Of a stretch of DNA of 64,000 bases, positions 8,300 through 52,913 are shown piece after piece. The DNA is from Kappaphycus alvarezii (taxonomy: Eukaryota > Rhodophyta > Florideophyceae > Gigartinales > Solieriaceae): the NCBI GenBank assembly GCA_002205965.3, contig NADL03000641.1, forward strand, positions 682,001 to 746,000, written 5' to 3'. Position 1 is the stretch's first letter. Each line of letters opens with the position of its first letter. The notes below the pieces were generated by a model. It searched no databases. It was not told the origin of the DNA and saw only the letters and a list, made by a program, of their open reading frames with translations. A program made the translations under genes and the position numbers.

Positions 8300-8583
8300 G
8301 CCCATGTGCATATCCAACTACCCCCGACTCGGACAAATCCAGGAAAGAACGTTCCGTTGTGGACTTCCTTCAGGCAAAGTCAATTTTGCCTGCTATCGCC
8401 CTGCTATCGCTTCACGACCGCTCAGTGCCCCGCATCCCGCCCTATTGCACTGCTCATTCGCTTGTTCCCCTCATCCGGTCCTCTCTGCTCATTCCCTCTC
8501 ATTCCCTCACCACTCCCCTTCCCCACCGTCCACAAGCCCGAAATCGGAGGTCCATAAACCAGCACCAACACCGAACAACATTC

Positions 8584-11699: not shown

Positions 11700-14600
11700 C
11701 CAATATAGTGCCACCCCCGTCATGTACAGAAATATGGCACTGCTGACTATGGCGCACTATTAGGTGAGTCCAAAATTACTGCTGCATTTCAGTAATAACA
11801 AGTACTGTGGCTGCCTGCTCCTAACGCTCGTCTCTGCCCTTTTCGATACCATGAGTACCATTCTTGTTAGACCAAGATAATGAAGATATTGAGCTATCAT
11901 TGTCAACAGCAGCACTACTACGCCTACGTCCCTAATTACTGTGGCATAATATCGTAACACCCCATCACCAGTAGTGAATTCTACGTACGTGTTTAGTTTC
12001 CATTACAGAAAGCAAAGCAAATGCAGTCTGATCTGCACTATAATTGAATTAGCCTGGTGTTTAGTTACATTTGGCGTTGGAATTCACTTAGCTATTCTCT
12101 AACACCCAAACTTCGTGCAATTGTAGTAACCGGGCGATTGGGTAAATGCAAAAATAAGGAGGACATGTATCTGCAAAAAAAAATTTATCTGAAGATCCGG
12201 GGCCAAGGCTTATCAGAATACAGCAAAAAGACGTAAATAAGTTCCATCTATAAATATTGTTGTACCCCCACCATCTCAGGCCTTATTTCAGAGTATCGTA
12301 TGGTATTGACGCATAATAAAACTCATACTTTTGACAGAAAGTCTAAACGAAAAGGTGTTCAATAAAGTGGAATATTCTTGAATAAATTTAGGTAGAAATA
12401 TTGATGCTATTGTCAATCATAATTTTCATTTCAGGTACTTCACCATACTTCGAGCTCATAGCATAGTTTTAAACGTCGCATGTTTGAGCTGATAAAAATA
12501 TTCGTAATTTATTTCAGTTATCACGAAAAACACAAATAAATAATGCACAGAATACTAATCAGGCCCAAAAAGTCTATATATCAAACTACGACAACAAGTA
12601 TGTTTATAAACCACATTAAGGCCTAATACAACCTCTTGATGCAAAAAATGTTATTAAATACATTTTCTCTGATATTTAGATCATATAAATTGTTTCACGG
12701 CAATTTAAAATTTTCTGAAACACGAAGCTGGTATTGTTTCCATTTTCTAGGAACATTTCGAAATGAACTTGTGTTGTTTGATGAAATTAGCTTTGAGGCT
12801 CTTATTATATGTTCTTCAGAGGCTAAACATCAAAGCTAGAAGCTCCCTATTACCAGAAAGCTGTACTGTACTCACCTCCTCGGGCAATACTACAAGATTC
12901 TTGTTCATCGTAGCCACTTCTGTGCATTTTCAAATATCATCCAGCCTCTTTCTAGTTATTAGCTACCCCTTACTCTCCGAAGATCTCTATTTTTCCAAAG
13001 AAATATAACACTCAGCAGTTTTTATTGAGCTCATATACCTCATTTTTGTCTCTTCTATCGCAATTGTCTGTTCTAAAGGTTCATATGTTATTCAACAGTT
13101 CTGAATCATTATGTAGTAACATAAATACATAATCATCTGGCTTATATATTTTCAGTACCAAAAGTCCGCTTGTTGACACTAATTATCACTATCTTATCCA
13201 GTATTCAATCAGATTTATTCTTGTTATCTTTTTCTTTGTTGTATATTTCAAAAAAACCCACTGAAAAACACGCGTACAGTTTTGTAGCCGATTATCATTT
13301 GCTGGCTTTAACATTCCAAGAATTAAATATTCATATTTTTCATTACTTACTATTCTCCTACATCATATTCAAAATGTTTAGAGCATTACAGCTTTGCTGA
13401 GTGCTGATAAGAAGGAAAGCGATTACTATGCCCATTCTTGTTATTATAAATGCACCGAAATTGTCTCCGAAGTCATCGTTAGTAATTTGAAGATTTTACA
13501 GTTTGGTCTCCAAACCCTTGATGATATCAGCAAATTTACCACGGAATGCGTTTGAAACCATCAAATATCTTAATTTAACGCATTCAGAAAAACGTATTTT
13601 TCAATTTTCTAATTTAAACAACCGGTTTGGTGTAATTACATGAAGTAATGCAACCACAACTTCGAATACCCAAATTTCGGATGAGACTTTGACCTCTGAT
13701 CGCCCTCCTTCTTACGATATTTTCGAATCAAAATGTCTATTTCTCTGGATATTAAAATAAATTCAATGACCACCAAGTCATTATTAATTGGAGCAAACCT
13801 TGAATACGAAGAGTTCAAAAAAAGTCTTCATTGAATTGCTTTCTTTTTTAGTCATTCATGGAAGTAACAAACAAAAAATAATATACCCTTTAGGCAAATT
13901 TCGTGTGTTAGGGATTCATAACTCTTACTCAAAGTATGTTAAAATTGGACTACTACAAAGCAGCATAATCCCTTTTATAATAGAGTTACCGAAGCCTTTC
14001 GCTACTTGGAACTACAAAATTGGTCATCTTAAATGACAAAGGCACCTAAAAATTGCGACAGTGATAATTTTTTTCAAGAGATTATTAGAACTATTTTCGT
14101 TTTAGTTGGAAAAACTTACACTAAACGATGCATACAATTTGAATCATACTGAAACAAATAACCGAAAAAAATTAAGAAAAGAATCCTACTGTCTATAAAA
14201 ATATATAAATAATAAGAAATAAAAATTCAAAAATTTAAGAGCAAATTTATGATTGGATTTCTACTCGCATAATGTAAAACATGAGAAACTTTAACTGTAA
14301 TCATTGGAAGTTTTTATACCAGTAATTCTCTGAACAGCTCCAGTATATTTGTCTTTTCTGATCGTAAAAAGTGTTTCGGTTTTAGTGAAACAGTCCATAT
14401 TAAAAATAGTAGTACATATTCTCCTGAACCTGTCGAAATTTGAAATTAAATATAAATTGGGAAACTTATCACTAAATTGAAGATGAAGGTATTCATATTA
14501 CTTTATGAAAGAGTTCAAGATGCAGTTTGCAACATTTTTGAAAGTCAAAGTGCTTCTTAAACAATTCATTGAGTACATTTTTATGTTTTACATATTTTAT

Positions 14601-17389
14601 GGTACCTCTTGTAATTAATGAGAAATTATTAAAACGGGCATTCTTATCCTTAAAATTATATCCCAGGGGTTTTAAATCGTGAAGTTGACTCATTTTTCAG
14701 AAAACCTTAATATAAATGGACTTTTATCGTCTTTTAGAGTGACACATGCTTCTTGAGTTAACATTGTCGAGATTTTAGAGAGGATTATTTTCTCTTTGTA
14801 AATTTCGGCTCTACAAATCTCTCTTCAGAAAAGTCACAAAAATTTTCCTGAGCCCTGTTTTTTCTCATATGTAATCAATTTTTATTCAGCAAATATTAAA
14901 AGAATGGGGTTACTTTTACTTACAATTCCGTGTCGGAATGGAAAATCACCGTCAAATATGTTCAAATTGAGTTTCACAGCTAACAAATTGTACTCGTTTC
15001 AAAGTTATTGTAACAAAGAATGGAACCATCCATTCAACTTTTCAGAGACAAAGAGCTCAAATTTTGATGTATCTTGCTTAAAGTTCCCGAAGAGGAAAAT
15101 CCTATTACTGCTTGTTCGTTCAAGCATTTGATTTTGCTGAGAGCTGCTCGAAAAAAATTAAAAGCCTATGTAGTTTTCTTTTTCATCCTTTCCTTATCCT
15201 TATCTTTTCGAAAATATTACGCACTTTTTGAAAATATGGGGCAAAAAAATTTATGCTATATTGTAATTTGAATGAAACGAAGTAGGGTTTACCGCCCTTG
15301 AATCGTCGAAGGAGATAAAAACTGTATATTAGTTTCCTTCTGTGCCCGTTTGAGCCATGAGAAGGGCACAAAAATCAAAATCCAATCAAATGAATAACTT
15401 TATAGAAGCTAAAAAATCAATAATTCCTCTTGGAAAAGGTCAAGAAAGTTGAAAAAGGAATTATCCTCGCCTGCTATCAGATGAGAATGGTACAGTCTTT
15501 GATCGCTGAAAGTATGAACAAAATACGGCTGTATAAATTAATTACATATAGGCCCTCAAAGATACAAGACCCCCAAGAAATAGGGACTCACTGAGACAAA
15601 AATTGATTTAAAGCGTAGAAATAATATTTCCAAAAGGAGTGATAGTTCTACTATGAAATGGGAAAAATTTTATATTTAAGCCCAGAATATGTAAAAGGTA
15701 TACTGAAGAGATCTTGAAATTAGAATTACAATATATTCTCCAAATAGTCTAATAGAGTATAGAAAAAATGAAATAATTATGTCTCGCGAACATATGCATT
15801 CAAAACTTTTTTCGATTGAGCATTTAGAAGACAATTAATATTATTATAAGCTCATAACTTTATCCGATCAAGCTAATTTCTACAATAAAACATGTAAAAA
15901 ATTTTGCAACCGGATCAATTTACGCAATATAGCTTACTAAATCTCATTTTTCGAAAAACATCAGTCTCTCCATGATTTGCGAGATTTTCTATCATTAGCC
16001 TGGTTGGAAACTTTTACGTGCTGAGAGAACGAAATTGCGGTAATAATAGCGAAAGGTTGAGGTTAAATGAAAAGTTTGGGAATCATTTTTACCAGACGGT
16101 AGGTACAGGAGACCTGTATTTTCTTAGAGATAGATTGTGAGCATGAAAAGGGGCTACAAAGATGTTTTGAGAAATCAAAAGTGACATATTTCTAGAGTTT
16201 TTTACTCTGCTATTCTATTGTTGAATACCATTGATACCCAAATCAAAAAAATTCTACTCACTACATTTTGTCTCAGTTTTATAAAGCATTCAAATAATCA
16301 CGGTCATTATAGCATGTAATCCGCACAAAAGATGGAGATATATCGCTTCCCATATCGACTTTTCGACTTAATTCAGTATTATCGCATTTCAATACCATTT
16401 CTCTTCCACAATCAACAGTGTGTAGCTCATCTCGAGGTTTTTATTACCTCCTAGCCGAGTTGTCGGACCGGTCAGTGCACCGCGCTGATACAGTTTTAAC
16501 TAAAGAAATCATTCAAATAGCGGTAGGCTAAGAGAAAAGGGTCACGCTGTGGAACTAGCAAAAGGGATATTTGCTTGGTTTTTTAGAGTAGGAGTTTCCA
16601 ATACTCGATTAATAATTATGTATTACTACCGGAAAATAATTTTGTAATGTAATGTCTCGCCACAATAAGGGTGTCCGCAAATTGGCCCAATACGCAGTTA
16701 ACTAGCAGTTCTTACAGTGACTTCGAAAGCCACCGCAAATATTTACGACCTGTTTTGAGCAAAATGAAACAGCACCAAACTGGACGTTATGAAAGCTAAC
16801 GTTCTGTTTGGGTGTGACTTGTTCATTACGTCATGCGCAAACGTCATGTATGGCGTCATGACTCTCACGCAGCATTGAACTCAGATCGCATGCTCACACT
16901 CCAGGCATAAATTCACCGCCGGCGGTTTCGATCTCTACTTCTCCTTGTTGAAGGCTCACCGTCCTACCTGTTCTAACACGGAAATTCTACCGCTCGATCA
17001 TTTCAACCTCATTGGCGTCCGTCGACTCAGCTCAAAATGATAAAATGACCACAATGGTCCCTGCTGTGAGCATTTCCGATCCCTCTCTGTTTGTACCGGA
17101 CGCATCTACTCTAGGACCAGACAATGATAGCGTTTGCGTTAAGACTCGGGGTATATAAGTACCAAAAATACCAGTGAATAACTAAAAAATACAAGCGACA
17201 TAATGCGGGACAAACTATGCCGTCCGTTCACCCAGTCTATCCTCCTCGACAGACGTTATTCGCACTGTGACGCGACTTAGAAGCGCAGAAACACAAATGG
17301 AGCCAGCGTCTTAGTGTGCTTGACTAGCAGCTATAGTGAACCCTTCGCATCCTATTGTCGAGGTCGGAAGCTAGCAGTACAACAGAAAG
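11700..17389. other. AT-rich gene-free region
   Basis: About 5.7 kb of AT-rich DNA with no frame over 82 codons. Those present are dominated by Phe, Ile, Lys, Asn and Tyr codons, as expected from composition. No repeat array, RNA gene or transposase motif was recognised. Composition becomes more balanced after about 16.4 kb, approaching the transposon relic at 17.4-18.7 kb. Confidence 0.6.
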
Positions 17390-21791: not shown

Positions 21792-24700
21792 ATGAGTGCG
21801 TCCCCACCGCCGGTCGCCAGCATGTCGTCCGCCTCTTCGGATACTCCGAAGGATCCGGCAAAGTTGGAGTTGGAGAATCAGAGTCTCAAGCGTAGATTGG
21901 TTCAGTACGCAGCCACTTTGGAAAAGTTAACCGGTCATGCGAGGCGTGAAATCGATGCCAGTGTTCGTGCACGCGACGATGCCTTGGCTGCAGCTGCTGA
22001 TGCAGCCGTCCTAAGGGAAGGTATTGCAGATGCTGAACGGAAGAAAGAGGAGGCTTTGCAGAAGGTTATGGAGCTTGAGCAAAAGTTGAAGGAACGTGAG
22101 GGAAAGGTAGGCGAGTTGGAGCAGAGGGCTGTTACCTTGGAAAGCGCTAGTCAGGAGAGGGAGAAGGATGCGTTAGAGTTAGCAGAGTTGAGGTCTGAAG
22201 TTGGTGCGGCGAAGAGGGAAGCCGAGCTAGCTAGGCAGGAGCGCAAGGAAGAGCGAGAGCGCGCGGAACGATTGCATGAGGAGGTAGCTGAATTGGGGAG
22301 GCAGTTAGCAGATACAAAGCAAGTTGAGATGAAAGTGAGAGACTTGGAGGTTGAAAAGGAGGAGGCGGAAAAAGCAAAGGAGAAGGCAGTGATGGAGCTC
22401 GGCGAGATGCGGGCGAAGGAAGAGGGAATCAGGAGCGAGAGGGACATTCTTCAGAAGAGGCATCAGGACGGTGATGCAGAGGTTCTGAAATTGAAGGAGG
22501 AGTTGACGACCAGCGTCGAGAAGGTGAACGAGTTGCAGAAGGCTGTCAGAAGTGCTGAAGGGATGGGAGTGGAAAAGCTTAGCGCAGCGGAAAGCAGGGC
22601 GAAGCATGCAGAGGAGAGCGTGACAGCATTGAGAAAGGAGCTTGACGAGGTTCACCTGCAGTTGTCTGATACCAAGACGGCTTTGGAAGATGCAAGAGTG
22701 TCATCAATTTCCCAAGAAGTTCAGAAAGAGGCCTCGAGGAGAGAGAAGCGCTTAAAGCGAATTTGAGTACGATTCAGGACGAACTAGAGCAGTCAAATGA
22801 ATTGCTAACCCGTGCTGCAATAGATGCCTTGGCTGACAAGCAAAGAATTCGAAAGCTGGAGGATTCGCTCTACAAGATTCGGACATCCTTGAACACCGAG
22901 CGTGAGGAGAGAAGAATGAAGGAGCAGAAGATTACACAGATGACTACAAGTATTCAGAACGCTGAGCACGAACTTGATGATCTGCGAACAACGAAGCGTA
23001 CCTTGTCAGATGAATGCCACAAGTTGCAGCTGCAGATACATGAACAAAGTAATGCAGTTGCGACGAAGAGCCGTGAATTGGAGGAGCTTGGAGTGGTCCG
23101 CGCTGATCGTGAGTCAACCGTCCAGAAGCTTGAACTTGAGTTGAGTAATTCGAAGAATGCCCTTGCAAAGAAGGAAAGCGAATTCGTCAACATGGCTGCG
23201 GAATATCAAGAGGTGTGCAACCAACTTAACCATTCCTCGAAAGACCTCGAGAGTCGCCACGTTGAAGTCGCTACCGTTCGACGTGAGCTCAGCACCTACA
23301 AGGATCGTGTCGTGGACTTGGAGACTGAGGCTGAGCGCAACAAGCTGACATTCTCTGAGCTTCAGGCTGCCCGCCGGCAGCTGCAAGAGTTTACGGAGAA
23401 ATTCGCCGAGAAAGAGTCTAGTATCGCGGAGATTAATCGCGCACTGACAGCGGCGAAGAACGAGTCCGCAGGTGCCTTGCGAGAAAAGAAACGCCTGTCA
23501 GATATGCTCTCTGATGTAAGCGGAGACCTCAAGCGCGCAAACCAAGAACTTGATATTCTTCGTGGCCTCCGAAAGGATCAGGAGCTTCTTGCAGCTCGCA
23601 TCAGCGATATCGGAGCAACTTCCTCCAGGGAGTTGGATATCATGAAGAAGACCCAAACTGAACAAGCACAGGCTTTGGCCAAAAACACTGTCGAAGAATA
23701 TCAGAGGAAACTTGAGCAAGTCCAGTCAACGGCGCACCGCGATATTGCCGACACCGTTACCAATCAGCTCAGGAACGACTTGATGCCTCACCTCCTTGGC
23801 CTTGTTGATCAGAAAGCCAAGACCATCGTGCGAAACCTGGCCAAACATGTGGAGTCGTTCGCAATCGATGTAACGACAGACAGTGAGCTCTCCAGCACAA
23901 AGCAGGCTGGAACGGGAGCTGCTACTGACGCGACATCCCGATCTCCGAGTCAATATGTGGAAAATGTTGACTCCATTCTTCCACAGGCAACAACGCGAGC
24001 AGCAGCATCAGAGTCTCCATCCGCACCTCATTCCTTTCCGGACTCAAGTTTGCGAGGCGGGCCTCCGAATTCATTGATACTCCTTTTACTATGCGCGAGG
24101 TTCGGGAGGAAGATCTAGCCCCCGAACCTCGCCCTGTTGATGTGCAATTGGCGGTCAATGCGGAGGATACCCGAGGGTTGAGCTGATTTCCGGTGACAAA
24201 CAAGATGCTGATGAAACTGTCGACGCCACTGGGGTAGAGGTGGAGACAGAGGAAAGGGACATGCAGGATATATTTGTAATGATGGCTGATGAGCCTGACA
24301 TGGAGGAAGCACCAAATATTATTGAAACGATGTACGGCGTCCCTGCTGGCCTTAATGACGATGAGGAGGAAGATTACGATGAGGATGAGGAGTACGAGCC
24401 TGATGATGATGCAGTTGCTGGTGAGTATCAACAGGAATTTGAGCAGTACGAGGAACGCGAGATAGACATTACTGGATTGGCAAAATCCACATTGGAGAAC
24501 GATATCCTTGCACCCGTTTCGGGAAACGAACCTGCCGAGGATGAGGTGGCACCTGTTGATGGTGTTGCCTCGGAGGCGGTCGAAACCTCTAAGGACCGCA
24601 AGAATGCCGAGAAACAAGAAGACTCACCGAAGGATGAGATGTCTGCATTCACAGATGCTCTTAAAGCGGCTGAGGAACTGCTGGCTGGTAAGGATAGTAT

Positions 24701-27700
24701 TCCGAAAGAAACCAGGACTGTTGCACCACAAACTTCCGGTGATCTAGCTGAAAGTCAAGCTGAAGGGCAACATGATGAATCTTTGGCCGCTGAAATGTCT
24801 TCTGTACCTGGGGATGTGAAGACCGACGAACTATCAGGGCCTGATCTTGAAGAAGATCCGGAAGGCCGCCAGGGTGATCCGGTTGATCGTAGTATTCCTG
24901 CCGAAGAAGATCAACTTGAATCAGTCGGAGTTCTTGATAAAGCAGAGCTAATTGAGGACAGCGATTACCCTGGTCCGCGTGAGAGTGAGTTGGAAGAAAC
25001 GCAAAATCAACATCACGAGGAGTCGGCGGAAGTTCTCGCGGAAGAAATGGAACCAGAGAAGAACACGGAGATTGTAGACTCAGAAAAGGAGGTACAAACT
25101 GAGGATAGAGAGATGGAAGCGGAATCAGGGACTTTATCGGGCGGTACAGAGAAGGCTGATGTAGAATCTGCAGAAGTGGCAAGAGAGGGCGAAGTTATCG
25201 CTCCAGTGGCTGCGATGGGCACGGCTGCCACAGCTATTGCTGTGTCCTCCTTCGCAACTTCTATTGCGGTATCTGCAAATGCCTCCACTGAAGAAGAGAC
25301 TGCGCTCCCAACGGAAGCAACAGCGCTGCATTCTGAGTCGGTAGAAAATACCTTTAATGAAGATGAAAGTCCAGAGGAGGCTGTTGTTCTAAACTCAGAA
25401 GAAATGGCAGAAGGAAGCCAGATACAGGAGTCCAAAGAGAAGAATGCTGGCTTCGATGCACCGACAGAGAGTGAAGTGACTCCCGAGAGAGATGCCACAT
25501 CAGGGCGTGATGAGGCTTGGCGTTCCAAGCGAGAAGATAGCTTCGACGAGGCAGGTACAGCAAATGTAATCCCAACCGAGGCGGATTTTGAGGAGGGGGG
25601 CTCCATAACCGCAGAATCATCTGCGGTTCCAAAGGATATTGGGGAAGACGTAGAAGATCATGCTGAACAGTTGCCTATGGTAACTGATTCACCAGAAGAA
25701 CACATTGCTTCTGGGCCATCCGCTGAAGCGAAAGATCTTCCACGAAAAGTTGAAACTCCTAAGCAAAGTGATGTACGGGAAACAGATGAATCTGATCCCT
25801 CTATTGACTCAGGCGTTTCTCCCGATGCAGTCGCAGAGCCTACTACGGCAACCCAGGAGCCATCCCCTACAGAATCTGCGACGAAAAGTAGTTCTGATTA
25901 CAACAATGGTGAAGTTGAAGCGGCGGCGGATGAAAAGTCACCAGCTGAAAAGCTTCCAGTTGGAAATGTACCCGAGTGTCAAGGAGAGACGCGAGAGCCG
26001 CTGACGATAGACCATGATGTGTTGAAAGAAGCAGTAGAGCAGGATTTGTGTGTTGAAGAGACTGAAGCAACTACTGAGGGGAATTAAAAGCAGCTAGTGA
26101 GGATGTTTCGGGGGAAGGAATGGAGCAGGTGGTACTTCAAGAGGAGGAATGTTCCTCAAAGGAAACTGCGAGGGAGGAACCTCCGATAGGGTCGCTTGCG
26201 ACCGAGGAGGAAGAGGCGGTGGACAGTTTAACACCAGCCGACGGTGGAATGAAGGCACTACCTGCAGAGTCGATAGTGACGTCTTTGAGCCAACAGATCG
26301 CCCCGCCAGAACGAGAGTCCTGCACCCCGGTAGAGTTGCAGGAATCTGCGCTGGAATCCCAATCGCCGCTGGAATCGTCCTCGGATCACATCTCCGGAGG
26401 GACGAAGGAAACGGGGGTGGCCATGGAGCTATCGGAAGTCAGAATGGCCGAAGTCACAGGGTGTGGAACACCCTCCCTGCGGCGATGGAGCCATTGCCTT
26501 CTGTAGTGCCGAAGATGAGGGAGGCGGAAGAGATTCTGCAGCCAACCCACGCGGTAGCACCAGGGAAGGAAGAGGAATCGATGACGTCCAAAGAAGGGAG
26601 CACAGCTTTCGCAGTCGAGGAGGAATCCGAGCCAACAGAATCTCGGATGGAAGGGACCGGCGAACTTGGAGATGTAACCATCGGGACGGAGGATACCCGA
26701 CAACTGGGAACGGAAAGTACGGGGACGGAGGATACCCCACAACCTGGAACGGCAATTACTGGGACAGAGGATACCCCACAACTTGGAACGGCAACTACTG
26801 GGACGGAGGATACCACAGAACTTGGAACGGCAACTACTTGGACGGAGGATACCACAGAACTTGGAACGGCAACTACTGTGACGGAGGATACCCCACAACT
26901 TGGAACGGCAACTACTGGGACGGAGGATACCACAGAACTTGGAACGGCTACTACTGGGACGGAGGATACCACAGAACTTGGAACGGCAACTACTGGGACG
27001 GAGGATACCCCACAACTTGGAAAGGAAACTCCTGGGGAGGCAGATACTCCACACCCTGGAGACTCCGCTACTGTACCGGTGCCGGCGGAGACGCCCGAGC
27101 TGCAGGAGCACCCAGATTTCGAGGAAATGAAGGAACTGTTTCCGACGGAAGAGGTGACCCAAGCTTTAGCTTCGGAGAAAGCCGGGGCGACAGAAACATT
27201 CGAAGACGCTCCGTTGACAACCGAAGAGCTTCAGGGAGAAGTTCAAGCACCGCCTGCAATCCTGGAATCCGAGGCAGCAGCAACAACAAGTGCGTCACCC
27301 GAGACGGCCACATCAGCGGCGTTAAACGCAGGTTTAGTGAGCGGGGAGGCCTCGGAACTGATACCTCGCGACGAGGTCGAAATTCAAGCAGCCGCCGAGG
27401 CATCCACACCGGCAGCACCTGTAGAGCCGATTGCGGCATCGGTGACAGAGGACGTACTGGAGCCGCCTGTGACGAACGAGCCAACGGATGCCGCATCTGC
27501 CGACGAAACGTCAGGAACGACAGCGGTAGCAATGCAGGATGTGGAACCATCAATGCAGGATGTGGAACCATCAGTAGAGGCTACTGTTGCGGATGTTCCC
27601 AGGGTGATGGAAGCAATGGAGAAGTTGCCGGAGACGACATCATCCGGAAGGCTAGACGAGACTTCGATGGCCGAAGAAACCGCAACACCATATGCTGCAC

Positions 27701-30700
27701 TCGACCTCGAACATGTGCCGGAACAGATTGCCCGCGAGATGTCCGAGGTGGCAGTTGCAGTCGAAGGTACACAGGAGGCAGAGGATCCGAAAGAATCCGG
27801 GACAGCAGTATCGAGCGAGGAAGTATTGGAGCCATCCCCCGCGAGGAACCCGAGGGGGCATCAGCCGAGGAGGTGCTGGCCACTCCCAAAGAGCCAGATG
27901 TGCCATATGCTGCCGAGAAAGATTCGAAAGAAGTTGCACTGGACCAGACCGTAATGCCGTTAACATCAGAGGGGCCGCGGAGTCAGAGCCAGTGGAGGAG
28001 CAAATCGCAACCGAAGAGTTGGAGGGGGTTGCAGCAAGAGAGATTCTGGAGGGGTAGAACGGGAGAAGTCGATTTCAGCCGAAGAGCCATGGGTCTCCCA
28101 GGCGCTGCTGCCGCAGACATGAAACTAGCTCCAGAGGACGTGCCGGAGCTATCTGCACCTGAAGTAGGAGAGGTAGCACAGCAAACCTTAATAAGGGAGA
28201 TACATGTGACGGGAGCGGTGGAGGAAGTCTCGCGGCCCGTTGCGATCGACAAGCCGGAGATAGTGGAGACCGAGGAAGGGTCCAACGCTGTTGCCACATC
28301 CGAGGAGGGTCGCAAACCTTCAGCACTGAAGCAACCTGATCCGACAGTAGCGGCTGATGAAGGAAAGACTGAATCCACAGAGATGGCGCCAGGTATTGTG
28401 CAGCCTAAGGAGTCGGTAGAGGCCGACGCTATACCCGTGATGAGGGTTCCGGCAACGGAGTCCGTGTATGTAGCTTCGGATAATGCGGAAGTTGAGGATG
28501 GGACAACAGAAGAGGTATCATTTGTACCTTTGGACACCGCGGCGGACACCGTACAGGGCGATGAAGGTACGTCAGAGTCTGTGGAGATGGCTCTGGGTGC
28601 AGCTCAAGATGAGGAAGAAACGACTGTGACCGAGCATGTCGAGGTAGCCTTGAATATGGCGGAAGCTGAGCCAGGAGCGACTGAGGTATCTTTACTGCCT
28701 ACGGACACCGCGCCTGGTGCAATAGGTGCACCGGCAGCGCCTTTAGATACCGTGCCGGCTGAGGAAGGAACAACGGAGGAGACGCCAACGATTGAGTCTG
28801 CGAATAAGGCTGTGGGGACAGCGATTACGGCTTCCGAGTCTGTCGAGGAAACTTTCGATGCAGCGAATATTGAGGAAGAAGCTTCTTCCGTACCTGCAGA
28901 CACTGCACCTACTGTGGATGCACCGGCTGTTGCGATTGAGGAAGCATCTTCTGATGCTGCGGCGGCTAAGGATGGAGCGGAAGAGATGGCGGCTAGTGAG
29001 TCTGTTGAGAAAACTTTGGAGACGACGCAAGCCGAGGCTACGATTACTCAGGAGGCTGAGGGAACGACTGAGCTGGAGGCTGATGCTGGAACGACTGAGG
29101 AAGTGGCTGACGAAGGGACGGCTGAGCAGCTCGCTGATGAAGAAACGATTGATGATGCATACACTGAACCTATTGTAGAGGCACCGGCAGTCACGGCTGA
29201 GGAAGCATCTTCTGAGGCTGCGGCGGCTGAGGAAGGAGCGGAAGAGATGGTGGCCAATAAATCTTTTGAGGCAACGACTGAGCAGGAGGCCGAGGCAACG
29301 ACTGAGGAGGCTGAAGAAACGACTAAGCAAGATGCTGAGGGGCCGACTGAGGCAGTGGCTGACGAAGGAACGGCTGAGCAGTTGGCTAACGAAGAAACGA
29401 ATGATGATGCATTTAAACCTGCAGATATGCCTGTTGCTGAAGGGACGTCCTTGGCTGAGTCTGCCAAGGAAAGTTTGGATACAGCGAATGCTAAGGAGGT
29501 ACCGGCTGAAGTGTCTTCCGTTCCCACGGTCATTGCACCTACTGTGGAGGCAGCTACCCTGAAGAAGCTTCTTCTGATGCTGCGGCAGCTAAGGAAGGAG
29601 CGGAAGAGATGGCGGGCAGTGAGTCTGTTGAGAAACCTTTGGAGACGACGCAAGCTGAGGCAGCGATTGAGCGGGAGGCTGAGGCAACGACTGAGCAGGA
29701 GGCTGAGGCAACGACTGAGCAGGAGGTTGAGGCGACAACTCAGCAAGCTGAGGCAGCGACTGAGCAGAAGGATAAGGCAGCGACTGATCAGGACGAGTCA
29801 ACGACTGAGCAGGAGGACGAGGCAACGACTGAGCAGACTGAGCAAACTGAGGCAACGACTGAGCTGGAGGCTAATGCCGGAACAACTGAGGAAGTGGCTG
29901 ACGAAGGAACGGCTGAGCAGTTGGCTAATGATGAAACGATCGTTGCACCTGCAGATGCGGAAGGGGCGTCGACGATCGAGTCTGCCAAGGAAAGTTTGGA
30001 CACAGCGAATAAGGAGGGAACGTCTCAGGTATCTTTGGTACCTGCGGACACTGCACCTACTGTCGAGGCAGCGGCAGTTATGCCTGAGGAAGCATCTTCT
30101 GGTACTGCGGCGGCTGAGGAAGGAGCAGAAGAGATGGCGGCTAGTGAGTCTGTTGAGAAAACGTGCGAGACGACTCAAGCTGAGGCAACGACTGAGCAAG
30201 CTGAGGCAGAGACTGAACAAGGTGATTTGACGACTGAGCAGGAGGATGGGGCAACGACTGAGCTGGAGGCTGATGCCGGAAAGACTGTGGAAGTGGCTGA
30301 CGAAGGAACGGCTGATCAGCTCGCTGATGAAGAAACGAATGATGATGCAGTATACACTGAACCTACTGTGGAGGCAACGGCAATTGCCGCTGAGGAAGCA
30401 TCTTCTGATGCTGCGGCGGCTGAGGAAGGAGCGGAAGAGATGGGGCTAGTGAGGTCGTTGAGAAAACCTTAGAGACGACGCAAGCTGAGTCAACGACTGA
30501 GCAGGAGGTTGAGGCAACGACTGAGCAAGCTGAGTCAACGACTGAGCAGGAGGTTGAGGCAACGACTGAGCAGGCTGGGTCAAAGACTGAGCTGGAGGCT
30601 GAGCAAGCTGAGTCAACTACTAAGCATGGGGCTAAGTCAACGACCGAGCCGGAAGCTGATGCCGGAACGACTGAGGAAGTGGATGACGAAGGAACGGCTG

Positions 30701-33472
30701 AGCAGTTGGCTGACGAAGAAACAATTGATGATGTAGCATCATCAACACCTGCAGATCTTCCTGTTGCAGAAGGGGCGTCGGCTGCCGAGTCTGCCAAGGA
30801 AAGCCTGGAGACAGTGAATGCTGAGGGACCAGCTGAATTATCTTCCGGGCCTACGGAGAGTATACCTACTGTGGAGGCACCGGCAGTTACACCTGAGGAA
30901 GCATCTTCCGATGCTGCGGCGGCTGAGGACGGAGCGGAAGAGATGGCGGCTAGTGAGGTCGTTGAGAAAAGGTTGGAGACGACGCAAGCTGAGGCAACGA
31001 CTGAGCATGAGGCTGAGCAAGCTGAGTCAACTACTATGCAGGGAGCTAAGGCAACGACCGAGCTGGAGGCTGATGCCGGAACGACTGAGGAAGTGGATGA
31101 CGAAGGAACGGCTGAGCAGTTGGCTGACGAAGAAACAATTGATGATGCAGCATCATCAACACCTGCAGATCTTCCTGTTGCAGAAGGGGCGTCGGCTGCC
31201 GAGTCTGCCAAGGAAAGCCTGGAGACAGTGAATGCTGAGGAAGGACCAGCTGAATTATCTTCTGGGCCTACGGAGAGTGTACCTACTGTGGAGGGAACGA
31301 CTGAGGAAGTGGCTGACGAAGGAACGGCTGAGCAGTTGGCTGACGAAGAAACAATTGATGATGCAGCATCATCAACACCTGCAGATCTTCCTGCTGCAGA
31401 AGGGGCGTCGGCGGCCGAGTCTGCCAAGGAAAGCCTGGAGACAGTGAATGCTGAGGAAGGACCAGCTGAATTATCTTCTGGGCCTACGGAGAGTGTACCT
31501 ACTGTGGAGGGAACGACTGAGGAAGTGGCTGACGAAGGAACGGCTGAGCAGTTGGCTGACGAAGAAACAATTGATGATGCAGCATCATCAACACCTGCAG
31601 ATCATCCTGCTGCAGAAGGGGCGTCGGCGGCCGAGTCTGCCAAGGAAAGCCTGGAGACAGTGAATGCTGAGGAAGGACCAGCTGAATTATCTTCTGGGCC
31701 TACGGAGAGTGTACCTACTGTGGAGGGAACGACTGAGGAAGTGGCTGACGAAGGAACGGCTGAGCAGTTGGCTGACGAAGAAACAATTGATGATGCAGCA
31801 TCATCAACACCTGCAGATCATCCTGCTGCAGAAGGGGCGTCGGCGGCCGAGTCTGCCAAGGAAAGCCTGGAGACAGTGAATGCTGAGGAAGGACCAGCTG
31901 AATTATCTTCTGGGCCTACGGAGAGTGTACCTACTGTGGAGGGAACGACTGAGGAAGTGGCTGACGAAGGAACGGCTGAGCAGTTGGCTGACGAGGGAAC
32001 AATTGATGATGCAGCATCATCAACACCTGCAGATCTTCCTGCTGCAGAAGGGGCGTCGGCGGCCGAGTCTGCCAAGGAAAGCCTGGAGACAGTGAATGCT
32101 GAGGAAGGACCAGCTGAATTATCTTCCGGGCCTACGGAGAGTGTACCTACTGTGGAGGCACCGGCAGTTACACCTGAGGAAGCATCTTCCGATGCTGCGG
32201 CGGCTGAGGACGGAGCGGAAGAGATGGCGGCTAGTGAGGTCGTTGAGAAAAGGTTGGAGACGACGCAAGCTGAGGCAACGACTGAGCATGAGGCTGAGCA
32301 AGCTGAGTCAACTACTATGCAGGGAGCTAAGGCAACGACCGAGCTGGAGGCTGATGCCGGAACGACTGAGGAAGTGGCTGACGAAGGAACGGCTGAGCAG
32401 TTGGTTGGCGAAGAAACGATTGATTATGCAGCATCATCAACATTTGCAGATGTGCGTGTCACGGAGGGGAAAAGTTTAGATGCAGCGAATGCTGAGGAAG
32501 GAAGTACTGTGGTATCTTCCGCAACTAAGGACTCAGCGGCCCTTGTGGTGGAGGTACCAGCAGTCGCACTTGAATCAGATACCGCGCCGGGTGAGGAAGA
32601 AACGGCTGATAGTGAAACGACATCGAAACTAGCAGACACTTTTCCTATTGAGGAAGAGGCACCGGAGACAGAGACAACTGATGATGTGGTAGCAACAGCT
32701 GCGGACGCCTTGTCCGTTACAGACGAAGCGGTAGGAAGTCAGTCTGTTAATCTCACGGACAAGGCTGAGGAAGAAACTACAAAAGCACCGATAGAGGAGG
32801 TGACCGCAGACAGCGCGAGGGATGAAGAGGGGACGGGCGAGGAGGTGGTGTCGTCAGCACCCGCGGGTACTGTGCCTGCAGCCGACGAACAGACGGAGAC
32901 GACTGTGGAAGAGGCTTCAGATACTCTGGGGAAAAGTGAAGTCGTGCAGGGAAAAATCGAGATTGGGCAGGGAAAAACCGAGATCGAGCGGGTTGAGGAG
33001 GAAACGACTGAAGAAACTATGTCCTCGACGGCTGCGGTCGCTGTGCCAGCTGCAGTAGTGGAAGAGACTGAGGAGAAAGAGACGGGTGTTGAAGATTCGC
33101 TGAATGTCGGTGGGGAAGAAGACTTTTCTGATGGGCCTGACATTGTGGATGAAAATGGGGTGAATAATTTACCCGTGGGTGTTGATTCACCGTTGGTGAC
33201 AGACGTGAATGTTGCGGCTGATGCGATTGCAATGCAGAGTGAAGCCATGGAGATTGCGGCCGCTGCAGAAGTGGAAGTGGTGAAGAGTGTGGAAGCTGTT
33301 GATACTGAAACTGGTGGGAAGAGGCATTTGTGCACGCGGAAACGGTACCAAAGGTAGTTGCGGAAGCTGTCGCGGGATCGCGCCTGGAGTTGATGTTGAG
33401 AGCGGAGTGTTGGGTGCGAAGAGTCTTGCAGAAGCTGTGACTGAAGGAAAGAGTTTGGAGGATGTGGAGTAG
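21792..33472 (+). CDS. Giant acidic repeat protein with N-terminal coiled coil (frame-interrupted in this assembly)
   Basis: About 3,900 codons starting at ATG 21792 and ending at TAG 33470-33472. I recognise no family. Residues ~20-700 are a long heptad-rich coiled coil (Leu/Glu/Lys/Arg), ending near 23.9 kb. Residues ~750-3890 are overwhelmingly Glu, Ala, Thr, Asp, Ser, Pro and Val, with a 39-bp array (26683-27072) and a 216-bp array (31078-32157). An Ala-rich hydrophobic stretch near 25.19-25.28 kb (VIAPVAAMGTAATAIAVSS) could be one membrane segment. The reading frame changes about 13 times (near 22.74, 24.05, 24.18, 26.09, 26.47, 27.84, 27.96, 28.06, 28.10, 29.56, 30.45, 33.32 and 33.39 kb), always as if one base were missing, so I treat it as one gene. 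A structural, scaffold or lumenal role is possible but unproven. Splitting into several genes is the alternative. Confidence 0.7.
26683..27072 (+). repeat. 39-bp tandem array (13-residue units) in the giant gene
   Basis: Nine clear units plus a degenerate tenth encode variants of GTEDTTELGTATT or GTEDTPQLGTATT in the frame that continues the acidic protein. The units differ by a few substitutions only. The array also stays open in another plus frame (Gly/Tyr/Trp-rich) and on the minus strand (Val/Ser/Pro-rich), because the period is a multiple of three and the unit lacks stops there. Confidence 0.9.
30877..31077 (+). repeat. 201-bp block, copy A (paired with 32158-32358)
   Basis: This 67-codon block starts APAVTPEEASSDAAAAEDG and ends TTELEADA. 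It is repeated almost without change at 32158-32358, so it brackets the five 216-bp units. The arrangement suggests that the tandem units arose inside an older composite repeat of the two blocks. Confidence 0.85.
31078..32157 (+). repeat. 216-bp tandem array (72-residue units), five copies in the giant gene
   Basis: Five copies in perfect register (31078, 31294, 31510, 31726, 31942), each beginning GTTEEV and ending PTESVPTVE. Copies differ by only a handful of bases, for example DLP versus DHP and VDD versus VAD, so the expansion is recent. An older, slightly different unit precedes the first 201-bp block near 30664. Copy number may vary between individuals or be collapsed in the assembly. 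Confidence 0.95.
32158..32358 (+). repeat. 201-bp block, copy B (paired with 30877-31077)
   Basis: Near-identical second copy of the block at 30877-31077, in the same reading frame of the giant gene. Confidence 0.85.
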
Positions 33473-33862: not shown

Positions 33863-34644
33863 ATGGGTTGCTTCGCCTCAAAACCAGAAACAGTTCCTTC
33901 CTCTGCGCCGCAGAAAGTGCCACCCCAACCAACCTCCCAACCTCAACCGCAATCCCAACCGATCCCAACCCCCGTATCCGAACCGGCCGTCGCCGCCTCC
34001 AAAGTCGCGCTAGTCCCGAAACCCGCAATCCAAATCACCGCCACGACAAAGCCTCTCTGAAACTCCGTTCCCTCCAAGACAAACTCACCGCCGCTCTCTC
34101 CCACTCCGACTCCCAACTCCGTCTCTACGGTCAAGAGGCACTGCGCCAACATCGCGCCAAGAACCCCATCGCCGCACAACTCCTCATCTCCGAACGCACC
34201 CGCCTTCAAACCAAAGTCGCTCGACAACAACAGGAAGTCGCCCGTCTGGCCGAAATGGTCGATAAGATGGACGAGGCTAAACAAAACAAGGACCTCTTCG
34301 ACGCCCTCGAAAAGGGCAACGCAATGATCGCCGACATCATGCAAGACCTATCCGACGATAAAGTCCAAACCGTGCTTGACCAGAGTCGAGAAATGAAGCA
34401 AGCAGTCCAGGACGTTGGCGACGCATTGGCCGAGGATTCCACACACCTGCCGCAGGAGCAAATCGACGCAGAAATCGCGGAGCTGGAAAAGGAGTTTGGC
34501 ACTGACGACACCGTGCAACATGAAACTGAAACCCTTGACAAGGCACAGAACATTCCCGACGTCCCACAGGTGCAGCCCGCTGTGCCGCAACCCGCCACCC
34601 CGCAATCCGCCCCTGAAGCCAAGGTCCCGATCGCACAGGGATAG
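33863..34644 (+). CDS. CHMP6: ESCRT-III subunit Vps20/CHMP6 (Snf7 family), one missing base
   Basis: ESCRT-III filaments remodel membranes at endosomes; Vps20/CHMP6 is the subunit that nucleates Snf7. The ATG at 33863 gives MGCFASK, a classic N-myristoylation start as in CHMP6. A Pro/Gln-rich linker of about 50 residues follows. The frame then breaks near 34045, where one missing base is enough to join DKASLKLRSLQDKL, which aligns with the DKAILQLK helix of CHMP6. Basic helix 1-2, LLISERTRLQTKVARQQ, the acidic helices and the C-terminal Pro/Gln tail with an EIAELEKEFG segment follow to the stop at 34644. About 260 residues; CHMP6 is usually about 200, the excess being linker and tail. It converges with the uL15 gene downstream. 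Confidence 0.85.
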
Positions 34645-35471
34645 CCTGAACCGCCCTATCCCGCGCTCCCATTCCCGCAATCACGACCATGCGGTTTGAA
34701 ACCCCCGACACTGTAGTGTAGAGTCGCACTTTTGTCTAGTTGAAAATCACAAAGTCTACTCATCGACCCTGCGCCACACACCCATCTCCGATTCGCGTAT
34801 CACCCGCCCTTTGCCTCGTCTGCAACAACGCAACGCCATACCGCATGTTGCGCCGTCCGTTGGGAGTTTTACACCCCTCGTCGGCCCATGTATAGGCTCC
34901 AACCGGTACCGCGCCCCTACTCGCATGTCCATTTCACTGGCCCACGAAGCGTACGCACCGAGGGGTGCGTACGCTTCGTGGGCCAGTGAAATGGAACCAA
35001 ACCAACCTCAACTCTATGCGTGTGCACACCGATTAGTTCAGTATTGCAATTGCGCCGCTGGTGGACGGCTCGATAGGCGCTTTGACAATGAATACCTCCC
35101 GCTGCCCAAAACTCCAGCACCATCACCCGCAGGCGCCCAAAAGCGCGCAAATTCGGCAAAACGCCACCGCGCATCCCTTCGCAACGGTCACAACCGCCTG
35201 TACTACTAGCAGTGTATAATCTTTACCAAGCTGGCTCATGCGGACCCGTAAATAACAAACGACAAACGCGACATAAATCCCGACATCCCCCCTGCGACTC
35301 AACACTGGTTCCGAATAGAATGGCCACAATCCACCACCTCACTGCTCTTCCCCAGGGCGGGCAAATATGCACCCCTGATACCACGATAAGCGTCCAAATT
35401 TGCTCGATCCGTGCGCAATCCACAGCTCGGTAACAACGAGAGTGGGGCTGCTGCAACACGGTGAAGCATTC
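34645..35471. other. Intergenic region between convergent CHMP6 and uL15 genes
   Basis: About 830 bases between two 3' ends. A frame of 132 codons (34811-35209) runs through it, but part of that frame is a perfect inverted repeat and the rest has no domain, so I do not call it a gene. Confidence 0.5.
34928..34995. repeat. Perfect 32-bp inverted repeat with 4-base loop
   Basis: Arms at 34928-34959 and 34964-34995 are exact reverse complements around the loop GAGG. Complementarity stops abruptly on both sides. It lies between two convergent genes. It could be a hairpin/cruciform, a transcript 3'-end structure, a tiny foldback element, or an inverted artefact of library preparation. Confidence 0.95.
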
Positions 35472-36262
35472 TTACTCGGGCTGGTCCTCGACGTCACTGT
35501 CAGTTTCAGACGGACTGTCATCCACACCCTGGTCGACCTCTTGTTCATCATTGTCATCCTCAAGGATGATATCCTTTCCGTAGTCGGGGAAATCAACACA
35601 CACTTGCCACCCCTGCCCTCAATCTGCTCAACGGCACTAGTAGTAAAAGCATGTGCCTTGACTGTCAAACCATCGACTGTCAAATCGGAACCACCGACCA
35701 CCTTGTAAATCTTCCTCTTCTGCTTTGTAACAATACCCCTTTCCTTCAAGCCTTCAAAGGTGACAATCTCGCCCTTTTCACACCCATTTAAATGATCAAT
35801 CTTCATCAACGCATACTCTGTCTTCTTATGACCCGGTCCCATCGGCCTGCCGACATACTTTGGCAGTCTCCTATACAAGGAGTCTGCCCTCCCTCAAAAC
35901 CAGGCCTAACCCCCCTTCCAGAACGCGACTTTTGCCCCTCATACCAAAGCCACACGACCCACCCTGCCCGGCAGCATGACCACGTCCCTTACGCTTCTTC
36001 CTTTTCCGGAACCGGGTGCCGGACGGAGGTTTGTAAAGGTGAAAACGCCATTTGCCTCCGGTGGAAGGATACCATAGTTTGGATCGGCACGCTTCTTCCA
36101 ATCAAAGATCTTTGCCGTCGGAGTGGTCCTAGGGATGATTGTGGTGGTTGAAGGAGCGGATGTGTGGCGTTGGGGAAGCTTGCATGTGTTGGGACAAAGT
36201 CCAACGTAGACGGGGTGCTTGATGCGAGTGGCGCCTAGGGAGGGCGCAAAGGCGGGGTGCAT
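35472..36262 (-). CDS. rpl15: Plastid-type ribosomal protein uL15 (nuclear-encoded), four missing bases
   Basis: uL15 is a large-subunit ribosomal protein. The core (GQGGSCGFGMRG, PGFEGGQ, LYRRLPKYVG) is the bacterial/plastid type and closely resembles plant plastid L15, so the product should act in plastid ribosomes. I start at ATG 36260-36262, giving MHPAFAPSLG, a basic Ser/Thr-rich transit-peptide-like extension with an early Phe; an upstream ATG at 36367 is possible. The frame breaks four times, each explained by one missing base in a short homopolymer run: AAAA near 36010, GGGG near 35935, CTT near 35885 and CCCC near 35588. After the last, the protein ends in an acidic tail of about 40 residues, unusual for L15. 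It is divergent from eL28. Confidence 0.92.
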
Positions 36263-36651
36263 GGTTGAGGACCGTTTGGAGGGAAGAGTCGAGAGGGGTG
36301 TGCGGTGGGTGCGTTGTTGTGTGCAGGAAGGGTTGAATGGAGGCAAGCTCGGTTTCTCTGTCGCCACATGTGATCTCCCGCAATCCTAAATTGTTTAAAT
36401 GACATTTTTAAAGAGTCATGCCCCTGCAAATACGATTCACAAAGGGATCACAGTCGATACAAATGGATCCGACAAGCATTACAGACTGTAAAGTAGTTAT
36501 TTGCTTCAACATTTTCATCCCGCGGCGACACGCGGTCGGTGACCGATGCCGCCGATTCCCATCATCCACAACTTCCTGCCCCCATCTCTCCCTCATCCCA
36601 ACGCTGATTGAATCCCTCCCTCCCCCAACTCCCCATCCCATCCCTAACACA
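36263..36651. promoter_or_regulatory. Shared divergent promoter region of uL15 (-) and eL28 (+)
   Basis: Only 389 bases separate the two start codons, so the promoters of a plastid ribosomal and a cytosolic ribosomal protein gene must overlap or share elements. The half next to eL28 is C/T-rich, as in other leaders here. No TATA box is obvious. Confidence 0.5.
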
Positions 36652-37043
36652 ATGTCCGAAGCACTAGTCTGGCAGGTGCTCAAGTCCCGCAGTTCCAAAT
36701 CCCTGCGCCGCACCCACCCGGTACGCTCCTTTACAATCGAAAAAGGCTCTCTCACCCACGCCCGCCGTTTCCAAGATTCCGGCCTCGCCCGCCTCAAAGC
36801 CGTCGACGTTTCCGTCAACGACGATGGCATCCCAGTACTAAGCTTGAAAAACGACAAGGAGGAGTATCGTCGCCGCCCCGACAAAATGTGGACCGCGATC
36901 ACACTCGGCGGTGGCGTTCGAAAGCACTCGCAAAGACAGATAAGGTGCTCAGTGTGTATCAACCGGCAGCAAAGAAACAGGCGATGAGGAAGGTTAGTGC
37001 CATTTATAAGGCTGCGCAGAGGAAGGCCAAGTTGGCTGCGTGA
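36652..37043 (+). CDS. RPL28: Cytosolic 60S ribosomal protein eL28, one missing base
   Basis: eL28 is a eukaryote-specific protein of the large cytosolic ribosomal subunit (present in animals and plants, absent from budding yeast). From ATG 36652 the frame reads MSEALVWQVLKSRSSKSLRR, with the LVW-x-VL / SS pattern and the later FQDSGLA segment matching the N-terminus of eL28. The frame breaks near 36918 in GTTCGAAAGC. Adding one base continues into a helical basic tail (KTDKVLSVYQ, MRKVSAIYKA, KAKLAA) ending at TGA 37041-37043. That tail has the expected Lys/Arg/Ala-rich character. About 130 residues, close to the usual 125-145. A single-copy essential gene with one clean deletion is best explained as an assembly error. 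Confidence 0.87.
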
Positions 37044-37588: not shown

Positions 37589-39963
37589 TTACGCGCTACA
37601 GCTAGCTTTTCCCCTCCACTCGGCGCCCTTTTTCTCACCGGCCAGTCTGAAAGCAACCCCGTCATCCTCGGCGAGCGGCAGTCCCAACACAAGATCCTCA
37701 CAATCCCCGTCGTCGTACTGCACTCTGAATTTCTTCTTCTTCAAATTGTACAACTCCACCACTCCCGGGTACCACCCATCGTCCCATCTCACCTCTACTC
37801 GCTTTCCAATTAGCTTTTTCATCAGCTTCTTTTCAATCGGCTCCAGCATACTGCAAGAACTCGTCCCACACTGACACATGAATGACCGCTTTTGACTTTT
37901 GCCGCTCAGCCCATAGTCTTCAAAGCAGTAGTTATACGTTAGTTCCGTTCCGACGGCGATATCCGTAATCGCAAAAATCCCCACGTGCGTCTGCCCTGTG
38001 CTGCTGTCAAACCACTTTTGCGTCTGACAGTTGGGCTCACAGCTCGAGTTGATAAAGCGCGACAGATTCCCCTTGAACTTTGCATCGACGAGCAAGTCAT
38101 TAGTTAAATCCATCATGTAGTACTCGTTGCTCTTCTGCTCTTGCGTCTCTTTCAGCCGCTGCTCCAACGTGTCGCGATCAATAATCTCGCCAACATACTC
38201 GATCACAAACGAACCAGCCTTGACCAGCTCCTCCACCTTTAAACCCCAACCCCGTTGGTCCGCTGTAAAGAAAGGCTTCATCTTGGGGCTCTTGCGCTTG
38301 TAAAAGTTGCAATTCTGGCATTTCGCACCCGCCTTGCACGTCACCGCATTGCAAAAATAGCGCGACGCGTAGTTGAGGCAGCTGGCATCCACGCAGCGGA
38401 CTTCATCGCCACGCGGCAAGCACTCGCAGCAGGCAATCTCCGCCTTTCTCGGCTTTGGGGGCGGTTCGACGCCCTCGGCCCACACAGACTTTTTCACATG
38501 CACATAGGTGGGCATGTGCGGCACCCTCACCTCGCCCTCATCCCCGCGTTCTCCCTTACTGGCCACCTCCCTGGTCTCCTTGTAATTCCACCATTCGACA
38601 CCACTCAAATAGCCACTGGGCCAGATCCTCGGCTCTTGCAAATAGCCCCAGACCTCTCCCAAAGCCACGGTAATATCCTGTCTCTCACTAGCAGTGACAT
38701 ACCCCCTGGCCAAGCCCGCACCAAACGGGGTCAAATTCTTCTCCGACACCACCGCGACCTCCCCGGTCCCAAAAAACATACACGGCAAATAATTGGTGGT
38801 GGTGCTATTCTCCGGACTGAGTTTCAAGGCCGGGTAGGCCTCCCGTGCCAGATTGCGCGGCAAAACCTGAACCGGCCAGTGCGGAAATCCCCTCAACTTT
38901 GCCCACTGAATCAACTCTGCATCAGCACGTTGATAAACTCTCCGAGTTTCAAATTGAGTCTCTCGCCCACACAGCAGTCGACAAACTTGTGGGCCAGGGC
39001 CATACACTCCGGTTCACACCACCAGCCACGAGGATACTTTGTATTGCGATGACAATAAGCCTTGACCTCTGCCAAAGCCCTCTGAAACATAACCCTACTG
39101 CGTTGTGCCAGATGCATACCTCTTCCCACACCCTCCTCCCATGAAATACAAGCGCGTTCCGGATTGACATAGGCGACTTCACAAGTACCGAAATACATGA
39201 CACACATTTCATCGCCCTTCCTACTAAACCTTCTAGCGGTAATAAAACGCTGCTCGGCCAGACGATTCGGATCCATACGGACCATTTGCGCAGGCCAATA
39301 CGGATGCCCCTTAATCTTGGTCCATACAATCCTCTCCTGTCTAGCGACTGTAGCAATCTTGATCATAGCGTCTGTAGTAACATCATCGGATGGTGCCGGG
39401 GCGGTGCTAGACATTGGGGAACATACTGTAGAGGCTCTGGACTCACTGCCAGCGGACACGGAGGATCCCTGTCGACACGACGCCTGGTACCCGTGGTGTT
39501 TTCCGGGATACAGGGCGTGTATGCGGACGAGAAACAAGCGGTAAGACATGGATGGATGATCGGGGATATGAGGTTGTTGTTGTTGCGATGGGGTTTGGTT
39601 GTTGAAGAGAAGGGGTGGGAGTGGGTGTGGAAGAGGGGTGTGATTTGTGGAATTTGAATCGGGTGAGGGAATGTTCGGAATCGTCGGAGGTATGTGGATT
39701 GGGGGTGGGGGAGGACGAAGTCGTTTGTTTTTGCGGAGTGGACGCATGGGGGGTGGTCTGATTGTTGGGTAGTTTGAGTTTCGGGGGGGGGGAGTGGGGA
39801 TTGGAGGGGTGGGGGACGGGGTGGAGGTGGGGGGGTGGGGGGGGATGGGGATTATTGGGGTGGGGACGGTTGTGTGTTTGGGGGTGTCGGTGAGGGCGAG
39901 GGCGGAGGCGGAATTGGCAATCTCGTGGAGGGGTACTATGACGGGGATTCGTTTGCGAAGCAT
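37589..39963 (-). CDS. NSD/ASH1-like histone H3K36 methyltransferase: PWWP-PWWP-AWS-SET-postSET-Tudor (one frameshift)
   Basis: About 790 residues from ATG 39963. Order of parts: a Pro/Thr-rich N-terminus (~1-190); PWWP 1 (WTKIKGHPYWPAQMV, ~205-300); PWWP 2 (WAKLRGFPHWPVQVL, ~350-440); a Cys-rich AWS domain (CCECLPRGDEVRC... CQNC, ~505-550); SET (RGWGLKVEELVKAGSFVIEY, RFINSSCEPNCQTQKW, ELTYNY, ~560-690); post-SET (CQCGTSSC); and a C-terminal Tudor-like fold (VEVRWDDGWYPGVV ... QYDDGDCEDL). AWS plus SET plus post-SET defines the SET2/NSD/ASH1 group that methylates H3K36; PWWP domains bind DNA and methylated H3K36. The usual NHSC motif reads NSSC. The two halves meet near 38930 with a shift consistent with one missing base. 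The protein should act in the nucleus. Confidence 0.92.
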
Positions 39964-52600: not shown

Positions 52601-52913
52601 TCCCTTCTAAATTATCTCTCCCTCTGGTGATTGTACCAACCTCAATAGAATTTCTTCTTTGGCTATTATTTGCCGTACTTTAATCAGGAATTGTAGTGTT
52701 CGGTGGTGGTGTTCCTGACAACGTGGCGGACACACTTGGGTCATAGATACCAAAATCAGCACTCAAAGACTGCACAGCCCTTAGTACTTGCTACATAGTT
52801 GGGTTAAAATGAATATCGGTTGCAGCGATCCCATTCACACTTTCAGGCAAAGGGAGGCCAAGTTGCGAGAGCTGTTCAATAGCACTGTCAAAATCAAAAT
52901 CTACATCTTCCAT
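49694..52913 (-). mobile_element. Degenerate hAT-family transposase gene
   Basis: Minus-strand order from ATG 52913: MEDVDFDFDSAIEQLSQLGL, an in-frame TAG at 52791-52793, a BED-type zinc finger broken by frameshift (CTHC near 52.5 kb, then GSAGILGHYK), a helical region with PFAVRNKRDQYPRALGKLL and a FDGSEDL-type motif, then GVVTDNTGSVKNARKTLE (transposase Asp block), a TGA at 51215-51217, and the C-terminal hAT dimerisation region (PVSFWTTGRVSI, SPTATATERTFNLQSRI, LRPEMVRKLLFCQWN near 50.4 kb). hAT enzymes cut and paste DNA elements. Two features are odd: a 100-residue acidic insert near 51.4 kb and a Pro/Ser-rich tail of about 180 residues after the dimerisation domain. About 50 residues seem missing before GVVTDN. 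Two in-frame stops indicate decay. Terminal repeats were not located. Confidence 0.85.

Follow-up and report, generated by a model that had tools for sequence, protein, structure and literature searches.

The rod of an intermediate filament is usually about 310 residues long; the red-algal rod described here is about twice that length, and its tail is far longer than known tails. In the neurofilament proteins NF-L, NF-M and NF-H the filament-forming part leads into a tail that is disordered and negatively charged, and NF-L tails, at a net charge per residue of -0.24, form brushes (available text of PMC10869404). The nuclear-pore protein TPR consists of an N-terminal coiled coil of ~1,600 residues and ~800 highly acidic, non-coiled residues (PMC3258255, in the part available). 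In trypanosomes, the lamin analogue NUP-1 is described as a large coiled-coil protein that replaces a missing canonical family (accessible portion of PMC3313915).

A gene of Kappaphycus alvarezii was analysed in a window of 64,000 nucleotides (C637:682001-746000) from an assembly of 336 Mb in 884 contigs. Its product resembles the neurofilament proteins in having a coiled-coil part followed by a negative tail of similar charge density (-0.218 per residue, against -0.24 for NF-L), and resembles TPR/Mlp in the order of its parts; unlike TPR as given in the text consulted, its coil is less than half as long and its tail about four times as long. The likeness to NUP-1 is one of description only, and an acidic tail is not mentioned in the accessible portion of that source. 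The preferred reading, held with belief and doubt about evenly balanced, is of a coiled-coil scaffold that would oligomerise inside the cell and bear a neurofilament-like polyanionic brush. The features of the gene were as follows (window coordinates).

21792..33472, + strand: whole gene, 3,896 codons when 13 single-base gaps are bridged
21792..23872, + strand: head, predicted coiled-coil rod, residues 1-694 (composition, periodicity, AF2, dN/dS 0.07)
23873..24533, + strand: conserved linker with an Asp/Glu-rich patch, residues 695-915 (copy-to-copy identity)
24534..33472, + strand: acidic, probably disordered tail, residues 916-3896 (composition, AF2, dN/dS 0.41-0.64 by block)
25194..25277, + strand: 28-residue uncharged Ala/Val/Thr/Ser/Ile segment, residues 1136-1163, possible membrane segment (hydropathy, shuffles)
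26683..27036, + strand: 13-residue repeat (39 bp x 9.1); three units (39 residues) missing from the second copy
28895..29412, + strand: 87-residue repeat (261 bp x 2)
31078..32158, + strand: 72-residue repeat (216 bp x 5, units 99% alike); the second copy carries four insertions, each of 62-63 residues
32884..33183, + strand: C-terminal block, residues 3701-3800, 95/100 identical between copies

Stop-to-stop frames over 20-35 kb showed the coding path to be a relay of several frames. A Viterbi path built with the region's own codon usage ran in a single coding direction on the + strand from the ATG at 21792 to the TAG at 33470-33472, and comprised 3,896 stop-free codons once frame slips were permitted, with 12 frame changes (eleven -1, one +1). 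Alignment to the second copy, on contig C861, split the apparent +1 near 28052 into two -1 slips near 28055 and 28105, so that all 13 changes run in one direction. Reading through the region took at least 9 frame shifts on the + strand and 43 on the - strand; Markov shuffles required on average 117.9 (order 1; minimum 103) or 108.0 (order 2; minimum 89; n = 100 each). The coding signal on the + strand is beyond chance. An earlier note, made from the sequence alone, had described about 3,900 uninterrupted residues with no visible intron. Length and direction held, whereas continuity gave way to the single-base slips; an intron is unnecessary because the frame changes are of single bases. Spliced introns were ruled out, the breaks being one base long and mostly filled in the second copy, and programmed frameshifting was set aside, the slippery heptamer pattern tested being missing at all 12 Viterbi sites. 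The gene itself is apparently real, though its assembled frame is broken.

Four fragments of the gene (two head, two tail) were searched in the genome and matched only the window locus and the copy on C861; the head fragments (21792-22733 and 22763-24004) placed the latter near 312.9-315.1 kb. No paralogue beyond this copy was found in the four-fragment search. A 20 kb stretch (C861:299001-319000) was taken for comparison and was syntenic with 17.9-37.3 kb of the window, the six largest distinct blocks being 90.3-95.0% identical (91.0-96.2% when identity was counted stretch by stretch). At 10 of the 13 slips (22734, 24050, 24169, 26474, 27841, 27969, 28105, 29556, 33316 and 33378) C861 carried one extra base. 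Agreement at 30437 was indirect, the codon there also being different, and at 26076 and 28055, each beside a GGGG run, the slip was common to both copies, which were of equal length. In C861, further slips fell at sites intact in the window: 5249, 6259, 7743, 9061 and, in a G run, near 10025 (numbered along the reverse-complemented stretch); the site at 15457 lies within a 19-base difference and is ambiguous as a slip. The Viterbi path through this copy had seven breaks; one in-frame stop was present near the 3' end, in a diverged stretch, and one open frame of 1,904 codons covered part of the tail. In 5 of 12 cases a G/C run of at least 4 lay no more than 25 nt from the slip, against 0.93 expected (share 0.0028 of 5000 draws).

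Three neighbouring genes were broken in the same manner.

33863-34644, + strand: Snf7/CHMP6-like ESCRT-III gene (Snf7 E 3.4e-9; one single-base gap near 34040)
35320-36390, - strand: uL15 gene (PF00828 E 6e-12; four single-base gaps, all filled in C861)
36652-37043, + strand: ribosomal eL28 gene (PF01778 E 7.2e-10; single-base gap near 36923)

The first is taken by us to be CHMP6-like, its start MGCFASK possibly allowing N-myristoylation, and the uL15 gene is presumably of plastid type. Slips in these genes were placed at 34040, 35577, 35878, 35934, 36008 and 36923, and the base was present in C861 at all six; the C861 copy of uL15 had one gap of its own. Over 33.86-37.27 kb, the window had 11 one-base gaps and C861 had 2. 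Because C861 fills most of the sites in the giant gene and all six in its neighbours, the frame breaks are best explained as assembly errors. Users of the assembly should therefore be cautious, as single-base losses break many frames. Paired matches of near-equal score on two contigs, found for some of the 17 phycobilisome-linker matches in the genome and likewise for tubulin-family matches (families compared by score), suggest that both haplotypes were assembled, and the duplicated syntenic region hints at two haplotypes that differ strongly or at a genome of hybrid origin. The linker matches are in keeping with a red alga; phycobilisomes are also present in glaucophytes.

Elsewhere in the window, a perfect inverted repeat (34928-34995; 32-base arms, 4-base loop) was found 284 bases past the stop codon of the CHMP6-like gene. 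A dimethylarginine dimethylaminohydrolase-like frame lies at 8359-10200 on the + strand (PF19420 E 3e-73, residues 312-613 of a 613-residue frame). A SET-domain frame at 37592-39963 on the - strand had PWWP and Tudor-like matches above cut-off, with a second PWWP in an overlapping upstream frame; the frame change near 38.9-39.0 kb is perhaps another assembly gap. Likely hAT transposase remnants were seen at 49697-52611 on the - strand (Dimer_Tnp_hAT and DUF659, both below cut-off, frames broken). The stretch 12001-16000 is low in GC (29-34%) and has no open reading frame of at least 150 aa; GC was 50-58% over 22-40 kb. Rfam (gathering scores) and tRNA scans over the window gave no match.

Selection was measured as dN/dS between the window and C861, with slip neighbourhoods masked and 3,541 of 3,767 aligned codons retained. 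Repeat-to-repeat pN/pS within the tail was 0.64, 0.48 and 0.44 in the coding frame and 0.65-1.21 in six readings off that frame, one of the six being close to its in-frame counterpart; this evidence was too weak, and the two-copy comparison was used instead. The head gave a dN/dS of 0.07 (interval 0.03-0.11; 10 nonsynonymous and 40 synonymous differences), at a synonymous divergence of ~0.10, and the non-array tail gave 0.53 (interval 0.43-0.66). In seven tail blocks beyond residue 760 point values were 0.41-0.64; the two shortest blocks had upper bounds exceeding 1, and the interval of block 1400-1620 reached 1.49. Outside the repeat array at 29.6-32.57 kb, indels longer than 1 bp were divisible by 3 in 9 of 11 cases in the two coding stretches, 4 of 11 in upstream and intergenic sequence and 5 of 8 in the downstream gene-bearing stretch. 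Judged from the two copies, the rod appears to be under strong purifying selection and the tail weakly constrained and indel-rich.

These values bear on two other accounts of the breaks. Decay into a pseudogene would be in keeping with 13 breaks in the window and seven, plus a stop, in C861; it is very improbable, as break positions mostly differ between copies, the adjacent ribosomal-protein genes have the same kind of break and the head is so strongly conserved. Since two breaks are common to both copies, there is a small chance that two or three separate genes are present, divided at 26076 and 28055, where C861 slips identically. Such genes would have to abut, the frames having no spacer between them, and in all the flanking blocks the point value of dN/dS stays under 1. 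Both sites also lie beside GGGG runs and several other assembly slips are shortened G/C runs, so that a systematic miscall fits the common slips. The single giant gene of rod and polyanionic tail proposed in the earlier note was supported.

Residues 1-694 are rich in Glu, Ala, Leu, Lys and Arg, with a net charge of -23. Heptad periodicity was scored as power at 3.4-3.7 residues against 300 shuffles per block. The signal was strong at residues 315-420 (reached by 0/300 shuffles), 401-520 (1/300) and 501-620 (0/300), weaker at 181-314 (7/300), weak at 21-120 (21/300) and 101-200 (50/300), and absent at 601-700 (145/300), though the last ~60 head residues are helical; of three tail blocks, 801-1000 passed (4/300) and the others failed (170/300 and 146/300). 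The coiled coil of ~680 residues claimed at first reading is therefore clear over 181-620, weak over 21-200 and without heptad signal over 601-700. AF2, run on the single sequence of fragment 22763-24004 (414 residues), predicted helices at 3-191 and 197-370 (189 and 174 residues; mean pLDDT 77), although a prediction of this kind for coiled coils is no proof of oligomers. Residues 551-750 were all identical between copies (701-750, 50/50), 751-800, near two slips, were identical at 43/50, and 801-900 at 98/100; the strongly conserved module thus extends past the coiled coil, to residue ~915.

The 3,202 residues after the rod are rich in Glu, Ala, Thr, Ser, Val, Asp and Pro, as had been noted for some 3,100 residues of nearly pure Glu/Ala/Thr/Asp/Ser/Pro/Val, with a pI of 4.05 and a net charge of -698. 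The repeats of the tail are nested and their copy number differs between the copies, yet net charge per residue is the same in both despite a tail length difference of 156 residues. Among 366 amino-acid differences beyond residue 915, C861 was more positive in 55 and more negative in 47; the tail may be drifting, with codon and repeat composition, not selection, maintaining its charge. Fragment 24180-26084 (635 residues) was unstructured in AF2 (mean pLDDT 40, which from one sequence is no proof of disorder), and the tail is probably disordered. A kinase-regulated brush was also considered and dropped, since CK2-type sites in the tail were unenriched over shuffles (153 against 165.3; stricter pattern, 26 against 42.8).

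A possible Ala-rich membrane segment had been pointed out near 25.2 kb. The segment is present, and both copies are hydrophobic there (hydropathy over 19 residues peaking at 1.64 in the window, 1.61 in C861), and a run of 28 residues free of charged residues, Asn, Gln and His arose in 3/1000 tail shuffles; its peak hydropathy was equalled in 228/1000, AF2 predicted no helix there, and a membrane anchor is no more than possible. The segment bears on whether the protein could be a secreted or membrane-anchored matrix protein, in the cell wall, in a vesicle or in a pit plug, whose tail lies outside the cytosol. The rarity of the uncharged run and the long acidic repeats would suit such a protein, as would the pit plugs of red algae, described as mainly glycoproteinaceous in the part of PMC10536634 available. 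No N-terminal hydrophobic stretch was found (best 19-residue hydropathy -0.15 in the window, 0.14 in C861), and this, with a peak hydropathy ordinary for the tail's composition, makes the cell-wall or vesicle-matrix role first suggested improbable.

Pfam was searched with fragments covering nearly the whole protein except short pieces around the slips, and no family was above its curated cut-off on any of them. Rod fragments matched mostly coiled-coil models, all below cut-off (Crescentin rod, MAD, GAS, GCP_N_terminal, MIP-T3, DUF3509 and similar, which were rejected), and tail fragments gave at most one match, also below cut-off. A PDB sequence search with three head fragments gave nothing significant (best E 0.063). 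Foldseek with the head model returned 829 matches at E <= 10 (best 1.0e-3, 0 counted at E <= 0.001), the best 50 of which were long-helix proteins (SMC/Rad50 arms, chemoreceptors, F-BAR and others) and uninformative. No relatives were confirmed among viral contigs (one head fragment) or prokaryotic contigs (the other), in collections without red algae. Open-access literature yielded no paper on a glutamate-rich, intrinsically disordered red-algal protein and, judging by titles, none on a protein like this one among papers on red algae, intermediate filaments and coiled coils. The earlier note had recognised no known family and had named a clear match of the head to one with another domain layout as grounds for giving up its reading; Pfam gave no such match above cut-off on the head fragments.

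Unlike neurofilament proteins, the protein had no Filament match (PF00038) on rod fragments, and the family had 0 matches in the whole genome. Unlike TPR/Mlp, it had no TPR_MLP1_2 match on head fragments (0 in the whole genome), and two simple nuclear-signal patterns matched nothing in the window protein. In the available part of PMC6411479, basket and transmembrane-ring nucleoporins are reported as conspicuously absent from the red algae surveyed (two genomes), and this vacancy gives a nuclear role more interest than any other alternative. The protein could be a component of the nuclear basket or nucleoskeleton, either a TPR/Mlp that has diverged or an unrelated protein in its place; the coil would then sit at the pore and the acidic tail in the nucleoplasm. 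TPR's order of parts (PMC3258255, as far as available) would speak for this, as would a genome with neither TPR_MLP1_2 nor Filament matches but with 5 matches to SUN domains. Against it stand the missing family and nuclear-signal matches and the reversed proportions (694 coiled residues, 3,200 acidic). The zero count itself comes from an exon-by-exon genome search, with prokaryotic positive controls, that could miss a diverged TPR, and the same survey warns, in its available text, that undetected homologues do not mean an absent structure, which other proteins may build. Such a role is considered unlikely. Less probable still is the wider proposal that in red algae the basket, or some other scaffold of the nuclear envelope, is built from a giant coiled-coil protein specific to the lineage, in which a brush of ~3,000 residues would replace TPR's shorter acidic tail.

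Under the preferred reading of a scaffold with a polyanionic brush, an intron-less-looking red-algal gene would encode a protein of ~410 kDa. Its first ~690 residues would form a long coiled coil through which the chain would oligomerise, the next ~220 a conserved, partly acidic linker, and the remaining ~3,000 a probably disordered, repeat-built polyanion with about -0.22 charge per residue. Assembled through its rods, the protein would most likely project its tails in a polyelectrolyte brush; this would space, gel or passively order what lies around it, much like the tails of neurofilaments. A scaffold or a brush, both put forward in the earlier note (the brush there as cation- or protein-binding), remains the best guess, and only the matrix role offered beside them found no support.

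If this is true, a red alga would possess a giant scaffold protein whose polyelectrolyte tail has a charge density like that of neurofilaments; searches of this alga's genome gave no lamin or intermediate-filament rod and no TPR domain. The protein would then display a division of labour between a near-invariant rod and a fast-changing, indel-rich tail whose charge density is kept.
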